The translations under genes and the position numbers were made by a program. Below are positions 13,849 to 50,499 of a stretch of DNA of 53,075 bases, piece by piece; position 1 is the first letter of the stretch; every line of letters starts with the position of its first letter. The stretch is taken from positions 1 to 53,075 of the forward strand of contig JAFQZI010000081.1 in NCBI GenBank assembly GCA_017406005.1, given 5' to 3'. The DNA is from Oscillospiraceae bacterium (GTDB taxonomy: Bacteria; Bacillota; Clostridia; Oscillospirales; Oscillospiraceae). The notes beneath the pieces are model-generated. The model did not search any database and had not been told where the DNA came from. It was given only the letters and a program-made list of their open reading frames with translations.

Positions 13849-14007
13849 GTATCTATTCAGTCGTTTTTCCCCACCATTAATAGCTCGCGACAGAGAACCA
13901 AAATCGAAGTACAATGTTGTCTTCGCGAGCATCACGACGCGCGGGAAGCGTGCGACGATCCTTGCCTCGCACGGATTACACTAATTACGAGGTGAGCAAC
14001 AAATAAC
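13849..14007. repeat. Palindromic intergenic element, copy 1 (long form)
   Basis: The core GCTCGCGA (13883-13890) to TCGCGAGC (13923-13930) is 48 bp with 8-bp inverted ends. It is followed by a second GC-rich segment (ATCACGACGCGCG ... CCTTGCCTCGC) and the tail CACTAATTACGAGGTGA. The left edge (13849-13862) matches 11 of 14 bases of the left terminal repeat of copy 3. The right edge abuts the stop codon of the PfkB kinase gene at 14008. See copies at 44578, 46786 and 50379. Confidence 0.75.
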
Positions 14008-19213: not shown

Positions 19214-19293
19214 CTGTTCAGATGCAAGGCAAACACAAAAGCTGATGCTTTGCCTGTGGACAGAAATATATTATAAGGATAGAGGTTTTGTGT

Positions 19294-20358
19294 ATGAGTA
19301 ATAAGGTTCTGATCAAGGATGCCGTAAAAAAATACGGCGATTTTACAGCACTCAACGGTGTTTCGCTGGACATTGCAGAAGGGGAATTCTTTACCCTTTT
19401 GGGGCCATCGGGCTGTGGGAAAACGACGCTTTTGAGGATGATTGCAGGCTTCAACTCTATAGAGGGCGGAGAGTTTTATTTTGGAGACAAGCTGATCAAT
19501 CGGGTACCTGCTCATAAAAGAGACATTGGCATGGTCTTCCAGAATTATGCGATCTTTCCCCATTTGACCGTTGAAGACAATGTGGCATATGGTCTGAAAG
19601 CTCGAAAGGTCCCAAAATCAGAAATTGACAAGCGAGTTCAGGAATCACTGGAACTGGTGCAGATTGCTCATTTGGCAAAAAGAAAACCTAATGAACTCTC
19701 CGGCGGACAGCAGCAGCGCGTCGCACTGGCACGTGCCTTTGTTATTGAGCCTAGCGTTCTTTTGATGGACGAACCTTTGTCCAATCTTGATGCTAAGTTG
19801 CGTGTTCAAATGCGTTCGGTTATCAAAAAACTTCAGCGCCGCCTCGGCATTACGACGATCTATGTTACCCATGACCAGGAAGAGGCTCTTGCCATTTCGG
19901 ATCGTATTGCAGTCATGAAAGACGGCCATATCATGCAGGTCGGCACGCCGAACGAAATTTATGCAAAACCGCAGAATCCATTTGTCGCCGGGTTTATCGG
20001 TGTCAGCAACTTCCTCGATTGTGAGATCGATTCCGATGGGATTACTTCCATCAAAGACGAACTGAAGATCAAAGTTCCCCTTAGAAGACCCTATACGGGG
20101 AAAGCCAAGCTCTCCGCACGTCCGGAACAGCTCTTCTTCTCTCAGGACGGAATGCCCGGCGAAATTCTTTTCTCCACTTTCCTCGGTGATTTTATTGAAT
20201 ATGAAGTAAAGTTGAATGACGGACAGGAACTGATCATCAACGAGTACACGAAAGATACCACGACTGTTCACGCTGACGGGGAGAAGGTGCACATCAGTTT
20301 TGATCCGAACAGGATCAGCCTGTACACCGCAGATACTGAGGAGGTGCTCTCGTGCTGA
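19294..20358 (+). CDS. ABC importer A ATP-binding protein
   Basis: The 354-residue PotA/FbpC-type ATPase has Walker A GPSGCGKTT (about residues 36-44), Q-loop VFQNYAIFPH, signature LSGGQQQRVALARAF, Walker B VLLMDEPLSNLDAKLR and H-loop YVTHDQEEA. A C-terminal regulatory TOBE-like domain follows (about 240-354). A TTG in the same frame lies two codons upstream, but ATG 19294 fits the AGGATAGAGG ribosome site. It couples ATP hydrolysis to transport through the permease encoded next, whose GTG start overlaps its last 7 bases. Confidence 0.95.
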   Translation: MSNKVLIKDAVKKYGDFTALNGVSLDIAEGEFFTLLGPSGCGKTTLLRMIAGFNSIEGGEFYFGDKLINRVPAHKRDIGMVFQNYAIFPHLTVEDNVAYGLKARKVPKSEIDKRVQESLELVQIAHLAKRKPNELSGGQQQRVALARAFVIEPSVLLMDEPLSNLDAKLRVQMRSVIKKLQRRLGITTIYVTHDQEEALAISDRIAVMKDGHIMQVGTPNEIYAKPQNPFVAGFIGVSNFLDCEIDSDGITSIKDELKIKVPLRRPYTGKAKLSARPEQLFFSQDGMPGEILFSTFLGDFIEYEVKLNDGQELIINEYTKDTTTVHADGEKVHISFDPNRISLYTADTEEVLSC

Positions 20359-25155: not shown

Positions 25156-26232
25156 ATGGAAAAAATGAAAAAAGGTGTCCGCCTTGATCACATCTCCAAA
25201 ATCTACCAGGATCCCAAAACAGGTAAAGATTTCTATGCCGTAAAGGACACCTCACTGACCATTGAGCCGGGCTCCTTTGTTACACTTTTAGGCCCATCGG
25301 GATGCGGGAAAACGACGACCTTGCGCATGATAGCCGGATTTGAGAGCCCAGATGAAGGAGAAATCTATCTTGGGGATGAACCAATCAATGAACTGACACC
25401 GAACAAACGTGACACAGCAATGGTTTTCCAGAGTTATGCGCTGCTGCCGCATTACAATGTTTTTGACAACGTGGCGTATGGCTTGAAGCTACGTAAAGTT
25501 CCGAAAGATGAGATCAGAGAACGTGTGTTGAAAATTCTGGATCTTGTAGAACTTTCTGGAATGGAAGCTCGTATGACCAACCAGCTTTCCGGCGGTCAGC
25601 AGCAGCGCGTTGCGCTGGCTCGAGCCCTTGTGATAGAACCTTCTGTGTTGCTGTTTGATGAACCGCTTTCCAACCTTGATGCTAAGCTTCGAGTCTCTAT
25701 GAGAACGGAGATTCGTCGTATTCAGCAGGAGGTTGGCATCACGGCTATTTATGTAACGCACGACCAGAGCGAAGCAATGGCTTTGTCTGATAAAATCATT
25801 ATTATGAACAAAGGCGTTGTTGCTCAGATGGGCACTCCACAGGAAATTTATTACCACCCGGTGGATGAATTCGTGGCAGACTTTATCGGAGAAGCAAACT
25901 TCCTCAAAGGGGAAATGACCGGGAAGAACGGATCTTACGCGATGTTGAATGTGGAAGGCACTGATGTAAAGGTTGAAAGCAATAATCGGATGGAATCAGG
26001 CAAGGATTATACACTTGTTCTTCGGCCGGAAGCTGCCAGTCTTGCCGACAGTGGCGGTATGCCCTGTAAAGTTGTCCTGAGCTGCTTTATGGGCTCCTAT
26101 CAGAACTATCATGTGATGGTCGGGAATACTCTTGTAAAGCTGGAAGAACATAATCCTAAAAACAAACACATCTATAATGTCGGAGAAACTTGTTCATTGG
26201 TATTTGAGCCGGAATCCGTCCATGTTTTGTAA
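25156..26232 (+). CDS. ABC importer B ATP-binding protein
   Basis: The 358-residue ATPase has Walker A GPSGCGKTTT, Q-loop VFQSYALLPH, signature LSGGQQQRVALARAL, Walker B VLLFDEPLSNLDAKLR and H-loop YVTHDQSEA, followed by a TOBE-type C-terminal domain (about 245-358). It is the last gene of importer B, with AGGAGG before ATG 25156. A terminator follows at 26241. Confidence 0.95.
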   Translation: MEKMKKGVRLDHISKIYQDPKTGKDFYAVKDTSLTIEPGSFVTLLGPSGCGKTTTLRMIAGFESPDEGEIYLGDEPINELTPNKRDTAMVFQSYALLPHYNVFDNVAYGLKLRKVPKDEIRERVLKILDLVELSGMEARMTNQLSGGQQQRVALARALVIEPSVLLFDEPLSNLDAKLRVSMRTEIRRIQQEVGITAIYVTHDQSEAMALSDKIIIMNKGVVAQMGTPQEIYYHPVDEFVADFIGEANFLKGEMTGKNGSYAMLNVEGTDVKVESNNRMESGKDYTLVLRPEAASLADSGGMPCKVVLSCFMGSYQNYHVMVGNTLVKLEEHNPKNKHIYNVGETCSLVFEPESVHVL

Positions 26233-44577: not shown

Positions 44578-44696
44578 TTAAACAATCCTGAGCTTTTTAC
44601 CTATACTAAGCTCGCGACAAAGCACCAAGATCGAGGTAAAGCGTTGTCTTCGCGAGCCTTTGGATAGCACTAATCACGGGGTAACGGAACAGCAAC
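44578..44696. repeat. Palindromic intergenic element, copy 2 (short form)
   Basis: Core GCTCGCGA (44610-44617) to TCGCGAGC (44650-44657), 48 bp like copy 1, with GAGCACC/TCGAGGTAA inside (AAAGCACCAAGATCGAGGTAA). The tail CACTAATCACGGGGTAACGGAACAG is conserved but the second GC-rich segment is absent. It ends about 15 bases from the stop of the metal ATPase gene at 44711. Confidence 0.75.
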
Positions 44697-46698: not shown

Positions 46699-46712
46699 TA
46701 ACTTATGAAGAT

Positions 46713-46741
46713 ATTATAAAATTCCTGCTTCCGTTTGTCAA
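46713..46741 (-). promoter_or_regulatory. Consensus promoter of the metal ATPase gene
   Basis: Minus strand -35 TTGACA (46741-46736), a 17-bp spacer, and -10 TATAAT (46718-46713). The transcription start would fall near 46706, immediately before the operator. Confidence 0.85.
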
Positions 46742-46773
46742 GTGTTTTTTGCTGAAACGGAAGCAGGAATTTT
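46718..46773. repeat. 19-bp perfect inverted repeat spanning the promoter spacer
   Basis: AAAATTCCTGCTTCCGTTT (46718-46736) is the exact complement of 46755-46773, with an 18-base loop that contains most of the -35. One arm is the spacer between -10 and -35 of the metal ATPase promoter. RNA from the upstream minus-strand gene could fold into this hairpin. Confidence 0.7.
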
Positions 46774-46785
46774 GATTATTGCATC

Positions 46786-46947
46786 GTAACTGTTCAGCCC
46801 CATCCTTCCCGCTAAACTTAGCTCGCGACGGAGCACTCAAATCGAGGTACAAACGTTCCCTTCGCGAGCATCACGACGCGCGACCTGACGTGCGACGCTC
46901 CTTGCCTCGCGTGCTGTGCACTCATTACGAAGCGGCTGAACAGTTAC
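46786..46947. repeat. Palindromic intergenic element, copy 3 (type copy, complete)
   Basis: Perfect 14-bp terminal inverted repeats GTAACTGTTCAGCC (46786-46799) and its complement (46934-46947). Inside is the core GCTCGCGA (46821-46828) to TCGCGAGC (46862-46869), then the GC-rich segment ATCACGACGCGCG...CCTTGCCTCGC and the tail CACTCATTACGA. The right terminal repeat contains the stop codon of the VWA gene (46944-46946). Confidence 0.8.
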
Positions 46948-48867: not shown

Positions 48868-50040
48868 ATGAAAACACTCGTGGAACTGTATGACGAATGC
48901 CCGATTGAAAACGTCCTTGCGGCAGATACCTTCTGCCCGGAAAGAACGGTTTATCTCTGCCCTTCCGAAATCGCGCAGGACAAGGAAAAACAGAAGCGGC
49001 TGCAGGAATACTTCAGGCACCGCGGGCTGAATATGGAGACGGTTTTCCTTGACACCAGCCTCTTTCATACCGATAAGGTGATCCGTCAGCTTCAACGTGT
49101 TGCAGAAACATATCCGGACTGTGCCATTGATATTGCCGGGGGCAGCGATGCCGCGCTCTTTGCGGCCGGTTACTTCTGCCGGGAGACGGATATCCCCGTC
49201 TTCACGCACAGCCGGAAAAAGCAGAAGTTCTTTTCAATCAACAATGCCGGCTTTGCCCATCATCTTCCTTTTTCCGTGCAGTATTCCGTGCAGGATTTCT
49301 TCCTGATGGCATACGGGGACATGAAGACCGGCCGTGTAACAAACGATGCGCTGGTAGAGCGGGAAGGCATGATCAGCAGCTTTTTTGCCGTGTTCCTGAA
49401 ACACCGGAAAAAGTGGAACCACATTGTCACCTGGTTCCAAAGAGCTTCCCAGAGCGAGAAAAACGGGGAGATCTCCCTGTCTGTTCACTCGGATTTTTAT
49501 GTCAAAGGGGAACGCGGCTCCAGAATTCCCGCCAACAAAGAAGCTCTGAAAGACTTTGAAAGGATAGGCTTTCTTACTGATCTGGTAATTGAAGACGATA
49601 CAAGCGTCTCCTTCCGCTTTAAAGACACCTGGACACGCTATTGGCTGCGTGATCAGGGCAGCGTGCTGGAGATCTATGTCTGGAAAGCCTGCCGGGATGC
49701 AGGGATTTTCTATGATGTTACCTGCAGCACGGTTGTGGAATGGGACAAAGGGAACAACGGAGAGAAGGTTACCAATGAGATTGACGTGATGGCTGTGAAA
49801 GCAACCTCTATTCCTGTCTTTATCTCCTGCAAAACCTGCGCAATTGACACGGATGCCATCAACGAGCTAGCCATCCTGCGGGATCGCTTTGGAGGCAACG
49901 CGGCGAAGGCTTTCATTATCTCCACCGAAAACTGCCGTGCCATTACACGCCGCCGTGCAGACGCGCTAGACATCGATGTCATCACTCTCAACGATATCCG
50001 CTCCTGGCGTCTTGCAGAACAGATCAAGTCCTTGGCATGA
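48868..50040 (+). CDS. Card1/DUF1887-like protein: CARF-type domain plus PD-(D/E)XK nuclease domain
   Basis: The 390-residue protein has the DUF1887 plan: an N-terminal Rossmann-like CARF domain (about 1-130), a middle winged-helix-like region, and a C-terminal restriction-type nuclease domain (about 255-385). In the CARF domain the ligand motif usually written TGGTK reads AGGSD (IDIAGGSDAALFAAGYF). In the nuclease domain E268, E304 and D306 (TNEIDVMAV) are present, but the ExK pair reads SCK (S320, C321, K322), so the expected glutamate is serine. Characterised Card1/Can2 proteins cut DNA or RNA when bound to cyclic oligoadenylate from type III CRISPR complexes; no CRISPR array or cas gene is visible here. 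It is divergent from the VWA gene, and no neighbour explains its role. Confidence 0.75.
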   Translation: MKTLVELYDECPIENVLAADTFCPERTVYLCPSEIAQDKEKQKRLQEYFRHRGLNMETVFLDTSLFHTDKVIRQLQRVAETYPDCAIDIAGGSDAALFAAGYFCRETDIPVFTHSRKKQKFFSINNAGFAHHLPFSVQYSVQDFFLMAYGDMKTGRVTNDALVEREGMISSFFAVFLKHRKKWNHIVTWFQRASQSEKNGEISLSVHSDFYVKGERGSRIPANKEALKDFERIGFLTDLVIEDDTSVSFRFKDTWTRYWLRDQGSVLEIYVWKACRDAGIFYDVTCSTVVEWDKGNNGEKVTNEIDVMAVKATSIPVFISCKTCAIDTDAINELAILRDRFGGNAAKAFIISTENCRAITRRRADALDIDVITLNDIRSWRLAEQIKSLA

Positions 50041-50378: not shown

Positions 50379-50499
50379 TTAACTGTTCAATTCTGTCTTT
50401 ACCACTATACTTTGCTCGCGACGGAGCACCTAAAACGAAGCACAATATTCACTTCGCGAGCATCAGGATGCAATGATAACGAGGTGATTAAACAATTTC
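50379..50499. repeat. Palindromic intergenic element, copy 4 (short form)
   Basis: Left end TTAACTGTTCAATT (11 of 14 bases as in copy 3), core GCTCGCGA (50414-50421) to TCGCGAGC (50454-50461) of 48 bp, then TAACGAGGTGA and a degenerate right end. The second GC-rich segment is missing. It ends 16 bases from the stop of the radical SAM gene. Confidence 0.75.

Follow-up and report, generated by a model that had tools for sequence, protein, structure and literature searches.

The window analysed here is a stretch of 53,075 nucleotides, on contig C58 of a draft genome of an Oscillospiraceae bacterium (G000; 3.52 Mb in 174 contigs, 92.9% complete, 6.6% contamination). The original prediction placed four copies of a palindromic intergenic element in this window. 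A repeat finder recovered the four copies independently at the same positions, and they could be aligned with one another. The copies and their parts are as follows.

13849..14007, plus strand: copy 1, long form; left end degenerate, right end unrecognisable
13850-13861: degenerate left end of copy 1, TATCTATTCAGT
13883..13930, plus strand: hairpin core of copy 1
13931..13969, plus strand: extra block of the long form in copy 1, with a second small hairpin predicted by folding
13977..13992, plus strand: conserved tail motif of copy 1, TACACTAATTACGAGG
44578..44696, plus strand: copy 2, short form; terminal repeats not recognisable
44610..44657, plus strand: hairpin core of copy 2
44667..44681, plus strand: tail motif of copy 2, GCACTAATCACGGGG
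46786..46947, plus strand: copy 3, complete long-form IS66-type MITE of 162 bp
46786..46799, plus strand: left terminal inverted repeat of copy 3, perfect over 14 bp, GTAACTGTTCAGCC
46821..46869, plus strand: hairpin core of copy 3
46870..46909, plus strand: extra block of the long form in copy 3
46918..46932, plus strand: tail motif of copy 3, GCACTCATTACGAAG
46934..46947, minus strand: right terminal inverted repeat of copy 3, perfect over 14 bp, GGCTGAACAGTTAC
50379..50499, plus strand: copy 4, short form; left end kept, right end degenerate
50380-50391: left end of copy 4, TAACTGTTCAAT
50414..50461, plus strand: hairpin core of copy 4
50470..50484, plus strand: tail motif of copy 4, GCAATGATAACGAGG

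Several other features of the window were recorded. Directly beside copy 4 lies a gene (48868-50040, plus strand) for a protein of 390 aa. This protein has PADLOC matches to CARF4--CARF_PDDEXK (best E 1.3e-49) and, in Pfam, a Card1-like endonuclease domain (E 1e-10); from these matches it is predicted to be a CARF nuclease of a type associated with type III CRISPR. Two ORFs on the plus strand (19288-20358 and 25156-26232) contain direct repeats 5.9 kb apart, which are 61 and 110 nt long with identities of 79% and 75%. The repeats encode a P-loop-like GPSGCGKTT, which suggests putative duplicated transporter ATPase genes. Copy 3 is adjoined by a near-perfect long hairpin (AATTCCTGCTTCCGTTT..AAACGGAAGCAGGAATT, 46720-46780), which is perhaps a terminator and whose sequence is different in G020, a genome of the same genus. 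The relatives of a protein encoded nearby in the window come from Oscillospiraceae, Clostridiales and Ruminococcaceae MAGs, many of them from ruminants, which puts the host close to these; the closest relative is 73% identical over its best segment.

The unit shared by the copies is a module of about 80 nt, with an 8-9 bp stem whose arms are variable but match each other, a 32-nt loop and a 3′ tail. It opens with one stem arm, followed by the CGGAGCACTGAAATCGAGGTACAATGTTGTCT-like loop and the second stem arm; a spacer of about 8 nt then leads to the tail GCACTNATTACGAGG. In G000 the conserved loop sequence is CGGAGCACTGAAATCGAGGTACAATGTTGTCT, and the tail is a repeat of the loop motif. The 8-bp stem was the sole consensus helix in 41 aligned copies. 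The long form (copies 1 and 3) corresponds to the short form (copies 2 and 4) with a block of about 38 nt added between stem and tail, and a simple motif rule assigned 21 of 89 G000 copies to it.

Copy 3 carries the perfect 14-bp terminal inverted repeats enclosing 162 bp that had been described (46786-46799 and 46934-46947). The other details of the original prediction were borne out in part. The left edge AACTGTTCA, said to be conserved, was exact in copies 3 and 4, but it reads ATCTATTCA in copy 1 and was not found in copy 2. The common tail is present, but its sequence varies (ATTACGAGG, ATCACGGGG, ATTACGAAG and ATAACGAGG). The ATC after CTTCGCGAGC is missing from copy 2. The statement that no ORF lies inside is not literally correct, since a 35-aa frame (46818-46925, minus strand) is contained in copy 3. 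Three further short frames overlap the edges of this copy, and none of the four shows any sign of being a gene.

We searched the whole of G000 for the core. The pattern GCTCGCGA-N(20-50)-TCGCGAGC had 87 exact occurrences in the 3.52 Mb, and the reversed-pattern control had 0. With copy 3 as the BLAST query, at least 48 matches were obtained at E ≤ 0.01 (40 of 105 candidates scored). Chance alignment, or a lack of further genomic copies, had been named as evidence against the element; these counts exclude the first and contradict the second. An exact-pattern scan for the core in named genomes, which may not have covered its own genome, gave no match.

We then examined the ends of the 89 distinct copies in G000. 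Ends of the type GTAACTGTTCAG…CTGAACAGTTAC, each within 3 of 12 mismatches, were present on both sides of 26 copies. The left end within 2 of 12 mismatches was found in 29 of the 89 copies and the right end in 34, and all three counts were zero at 337 displaced control positions. The other 63 copies do not have both IS66-type ends at this threshold. For these counts, and for those in the relatives, matches shorter than 48 nt were left out and a copy repeated in several loci was counted once; a first count of both-ended copies with different search zones had given 23.

The pattern TAACTRTTCAGY, with one mismatch allowed, gave counts of 47 and 41 in G000 (control, 8 and 9), and one inverted pair of it on contig C159 encloses 1577 bp. 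This is an insertion sequence (IS) of the IS66 family, ISBst12-like, at 359-1935 of the contig, with a single long ORF of 477 aa that matches DDE_Tnp_IS66 (E 6e-43) and NCBIfam transpos_IS66. Its ends pair with each other at 15 of 16 positions and start with GTAACTRTTCAG, as the ends of the short element do; the IS and the short elements have only the ends in common. A transposase gene with matching terminal repeats, which the original prediction had proposed as a check, is thus present in the genome. One IS with these ends was found in G000, which is a draft with 6.6% contamination. Its flanks (CTTTTACA and ATTATATC) show no 8-bp duplication.

The single transposase ORF, the IS66 DDE domain and the GTAA ends are marks of the ISBst12 group, and the C159 IS has all of them. 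ISDge4, which belongs to this group of IS66, has a single ORF, ends GTAACTGCTCAGCA/GTGACTACTCAGCA and an 8-bp repeat, according to passages of PMC12898284. The ends GTAACTGYTCAG, the single transposase ORF and the 8-bp target duplication in those passages are accordingly what the group has in common with the IS or the short element described here. Unlike an IS of the ISBst12 group, the short element (120-162 bp) encodes no transposase, only a 35-aa frame fits in window copy 3, and its interior is the unrelated hairpin module. Two Paracoccus IS66 elements are tabulated with an 8, which we read as the length of the direct repeat, in a portion of PMC3281130.

Target duplications were sought from a boundary one base outside each 12-nt end, which was picked after nine offsets had been tried and which coincides with the position where the end of ISDge4, as published, begins (GTAA). 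From this boundary, direct repeats of 8 bp that differ at one position at most flank 4 of the 26 both-ended G000 copies and 0 of 650 cross-copy control pairs. Three copies (L029, L069 and L010) have exact 8-bp duplications. With a repeat length of 7 bp the result was 1/26 (control, 1/650), and with 9 bp it was 0/26 (control, 0/650). Copy 3 of the window has no visible 8-bp target duplication despite its perfect ends. For the end-less modules in the related genomes G024 and G102, flanking direct repeats were no more frequent than in the control (matches shorter than 70 nt left out).

When the 161-bp element of L010 and one duplication are removed, the locus gives an ungapped alignment across the junction to the sister genome G024, in which the dozen bases to the left of the junction are weakly similar. 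In G020 a different insert is present at this site. Copy 3 is missing from the corresponding gap in G020; however, the gap holds another hairpin, so this comparison is not a clean empty site. Based on the ends shared with the IS, the 8-bp duplications and the empty site, we conclude with high confidence that the both-ended G000 copies form an IS66-family MITE. A separate observation concerns a repeat-like block, TGATAAAAC..TCGTAT, which lies at one site on opposite sides in G020 (L297, about 1372-1450) and in G000 (L010, after the element).

Dispersed intergenic stem-loop repeats of 100-160 bp, such as the BOX, ERIC and Correia elements, occur in other hosts. Among described MITEs, MITEPsy1 is probably mobilised in trans by an IS, and excerpts of PMC3189936 show that it resembles the present element in its size (about 100-160 bp), its inverted ends similar to those of a resident IS and its target duplication. 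However, in those excerpts MITEPsy1 duplicates 4 nt, whereas the element here duplicates 8, and the element here has as its interior a structured repeat that appears to be older and also occurs in end-less form. A new MITE beside an IS66 element makes a 4-bp repeat, as stated in a section of PMC12888890. No IS66-family MITE was found in the open-licence PMC literature, as far as partial texts go, and this is weak evidence of novelty. Comparable repeats in Oscillospiraceae or Ruminococcaceae were likewise not found in the open-licence PMC literature.

We explored the distribution of the hairpin module in 102 genomes of the genus by using three covariance models. The model trained on G000 found the module in 5 genomes and a model from the relatives found it in 8 (both E ≤ 0.01); a third model, built on the most divergent members, found it in 11 (E ≤ 0.001). 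With strict filters, none of the three models had a match in 91 of the 102 genomes. In an order-level search of 394 sampled genomes, with a model that scores the G015/G089 sub-family weakly, the module was found only in G000 (1/394). G000, G015 (93% complete, 1% contamination) and G089 (94%, 2%) have at least 45 copies each, and G015 and G089 each have their own sub-consensus. G024 has up to 43 copies, G102 has 38 and G020 has 18; six genomes of the genus carry at least 15 copies.

Judged by a neighbouring P-type ATPase, the closest relatives are G020, G024 and G102 (83-87% identity; the G020 match covers residues 1-574 only). Of 73 copies in these three genomes and G096, none had the left IS66-type end and two had the right end, both of them among the 13 copies in G020. 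Neither end was found in any of 80 copies from G015 (54), G089 (22) and four single loci. The IS66 transposase domain was not found in G024, G102 or G015 (G089 was outside this search).

Flank comparison of 165 copies showed that some sites are common to different species and that the module has the same orientation in both. Both flanks match in L048/L087, L057/L088, L070/L139, L017/L118, L119/L110 and L130/L146. At L119/L110 the stems differ and yet each pairs, with GCTCGCGA in G024 and TTCGCGGGA in G102. Three copies in G000 (L017, L027 and L070), which have an IS66-like end on one or both sides, occupy sites of end-less modules in G024 or G102. This is not predicted by simple fresh insertion; copies would have to recombine with one another, or insertion would have to occur repeatedly.

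These shared sites, together with the right end kept by two G020 copies, could be explained if the IS66-like ends were ancestral; that is, there was a single old MITE family, of which eroded copies elsewhere lost the ends and kept the hairpin. However, the left end is absent from all 73 copies of the close relatives though stem, loop and tail are kept, and the 80 other copies have neither end. The lack of a detected IS66 transposase domain in G024, G102 and G015 also speaks against such a history, and the G015 and G089 drafts look like many-module genomes with no trace of IS66 ends. We therefore consider ancestral ends unlikely. Our preferred reading is that the inner module is an older REP-like hairpin repeat, which we hold with good confidence, and that it probably existed before its capture by IS66 ends.

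The stem of the module shows strong covariation, and the original prediction, which would have been weakened by a lack of conserved folding, is upheld in this respect. In 79 matches from relative genomes (76 distinct), 92% of the stem cells were paired and 8 of 8 pairs were doubly changed, and none of these measures was reached in 500 shuffles (0/500). In 17 divergent members, 95.9% of the cells were paired and 4 of 8 stem pairs were doubly changed. Because they were fitted to the model, these alignments are biased towards the structure; in slid controls the paired fraction drops to 16-68%. The highest mutual information was found for the stem pairs 5:48, 8:45 and 3:50. Pair 5:48 is also coupled to loop base 27 and to base 52, and base 27 is coupled to tail base 69. 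T27 accompanies 24 of 34 G-C pairs at 5:48 and 6 of 107 T-A pairs. The coupling of 5:48, 27, 52 and 69 across genomes may reflect sub-families or a recognition rule.

Gene context was determined with a simple codon-scored gene caller, and matches shorter than 60 nt were left out of the part of the count that took in G020, G024 and G102. A called gene was present on each side of 189 copies; another 43 were at the edge of a locus and 11 fell within called ORFs. The 189 intergenic copies were distributed as 77 in convergent gaps, 19 in divergent gaps, 48 tandem in the sense orientation and 45 tandem in the antisense orientation. The background gaps, which come from loci around two genes and are not genome-wide, numbered 42 convergent, 77 divergent and 144 tandem, and the gaps of at least 80 nt in the window numbered 4, 5 and 12, respectively. 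The module is therefore a high-copy palindrome between genes, mostly at their 3′ ends, as REP sequences are.

Strong stem covariation would also be expected of a conserved structured RNA, either a cis-acting 3′ UTR element or a small RNA, with many dispersed copies and selection on the transcript. Across the seven outer stem pairs, mismatches leaned to G-U over A-C (14 and 6, with 24 other mismatches), as this explanation would have it; however, G-U made up only 14 of 1016 cells (1.4%), and the lean reverses when the innermost pair is included (G-U 17, A-C 24). A sense lean at tandem sites in G020, G024 and G102 (26 versus 12) also agrees with an RNA, but G015 and G089 lean the opposite way (8 versus 18), and the overall orientation is balanced (48 versus 45). 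In G015, 5 of 54 copies continue into a terminator-like hairpin, which would suit a transcript. Against this, Rfam 15 gave no match at the gathering score in the whole window except a tRNA, and no match in eight module-bearing loci. Moreover, the module is dispensable in the genus, as the three models did not detect it in 91 of the 102 genomes. The absence of a net orientation bias and the few G-U pairs favour a DNA element, though not decisively. We judge selection on a transcript to be quite unlikely. The MITE/REP-like half of the original prediction holds and its RNA half is not favoured; we infer that the active form of the hairpin is folded DNA and not RNA. The Rfam matches near copy 3 at a lax E-value (mir-3914 and others) were rejected as hits to the element, because they lie far under the gathering score and are centred on the terminator-like hairpin at 46700-46792; the longest enters the element by 7 nt.

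Another possibility is that the module belongs to a genuine REP/BIME family, mobilised by a REP-associated tyrosine transposase (RAYT). The likeness to REP/BIME, as given in parts of PMC3733652 and PMC2817692, lies in high-copy intergenic palindromes near convergent gene ends, with genome-specific consensus variants and mosaic or tandem arrays. However, the module differs in being about 80 nt long, with a long conserved loop and a tail. A GTAG or CGTC tag at the foot of the hairpin was found in only 0-3 of 219 copies (matches shorter than 70 nt and longer than 90 nt left out). G020 and G102 yielded no Y1 transposase gene. The search of 11 draft genomes (G089 was outside this search) gave twelve Y1_Tnp matches; nine of these loci were tested, and none has a convincing module within about 1.5 kb, one of them (L168) having a single weak module score of 13.7-14.7 bits. 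No RAYT gene was found beside the module, and a RAYT or Y1 transposase that tracks the module is unsupported, as the Y1 loci tested lack a convincing module. Movement by a RAYT thus appears very improbable.

The explanation that we regard as probable has two layers, in which an older REP-like hairpin module was enclosed by IS66-family ends in the G000 lineage, giving a MITE. The inner layer would be a REP-like repeat in the DNA, about 80 nt long and detected in this analysis within one genus only. It persists in the gaps between genes, for the most part at 3′ ends. In the G000 lineage, the module would have acquired an end of an IS66-family (ISBst12-like) IS on each side, forming a MITE of 120 or 160 bp. 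The transposase of the C159 IS, or a relative of it, could then act in trans by recognising the GTAACTRTTCAG ends common to both, excise the element and insert it with an 8-bp duplication. From the shared ends, we infer that a transposase of the C159 type moves the MITE.

A structured repeat that forms the interior of a MITE and also lives without transposon ends provides a test case for the origin, spread and capture of REP-like repeats. Pair 5:48 and loop base 27 change together, and tail base 69 varies with base 27. On this basis we suggest, tentatively and as a possible rather than a probable reading, that the module represents a novel class of hairpin DNA, either self-spreading or under selection, in a rumen/gut Oscillospiraceae genus. 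It would behave like a REP, although it has no REP tag and no tyrosine transposase was detected beside it; it would follow a co-evolving protein that reads the folded strand, and an IS66 transposon would have captured it in one lineage and would carry it as cargo. Because six genomes have at least 15 copies and 91 of 102 have no match, comparative genomics can seek a gene that tracks the copy load.

Some further observations concern the genomes with many copies. G000, G015 and G089 are large for the genus (3.1-3.5 Mb, versus near 2 Mb in many others), and G072 and G074 (3.5-3.6 Mb) yield no module. In G015 (L344-L363) and G089 (L364-L383), the modules are found within mosaics with other repeats, for example CTGCGGGCGCTAA and GCCGCGAAT upstream and, in G015, the terminator-like hairpin GGGGTTGTCC..GACAGCCCC downstream. 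Tandem copies of the module recur in G015 with a spacing of 143-144 bp.
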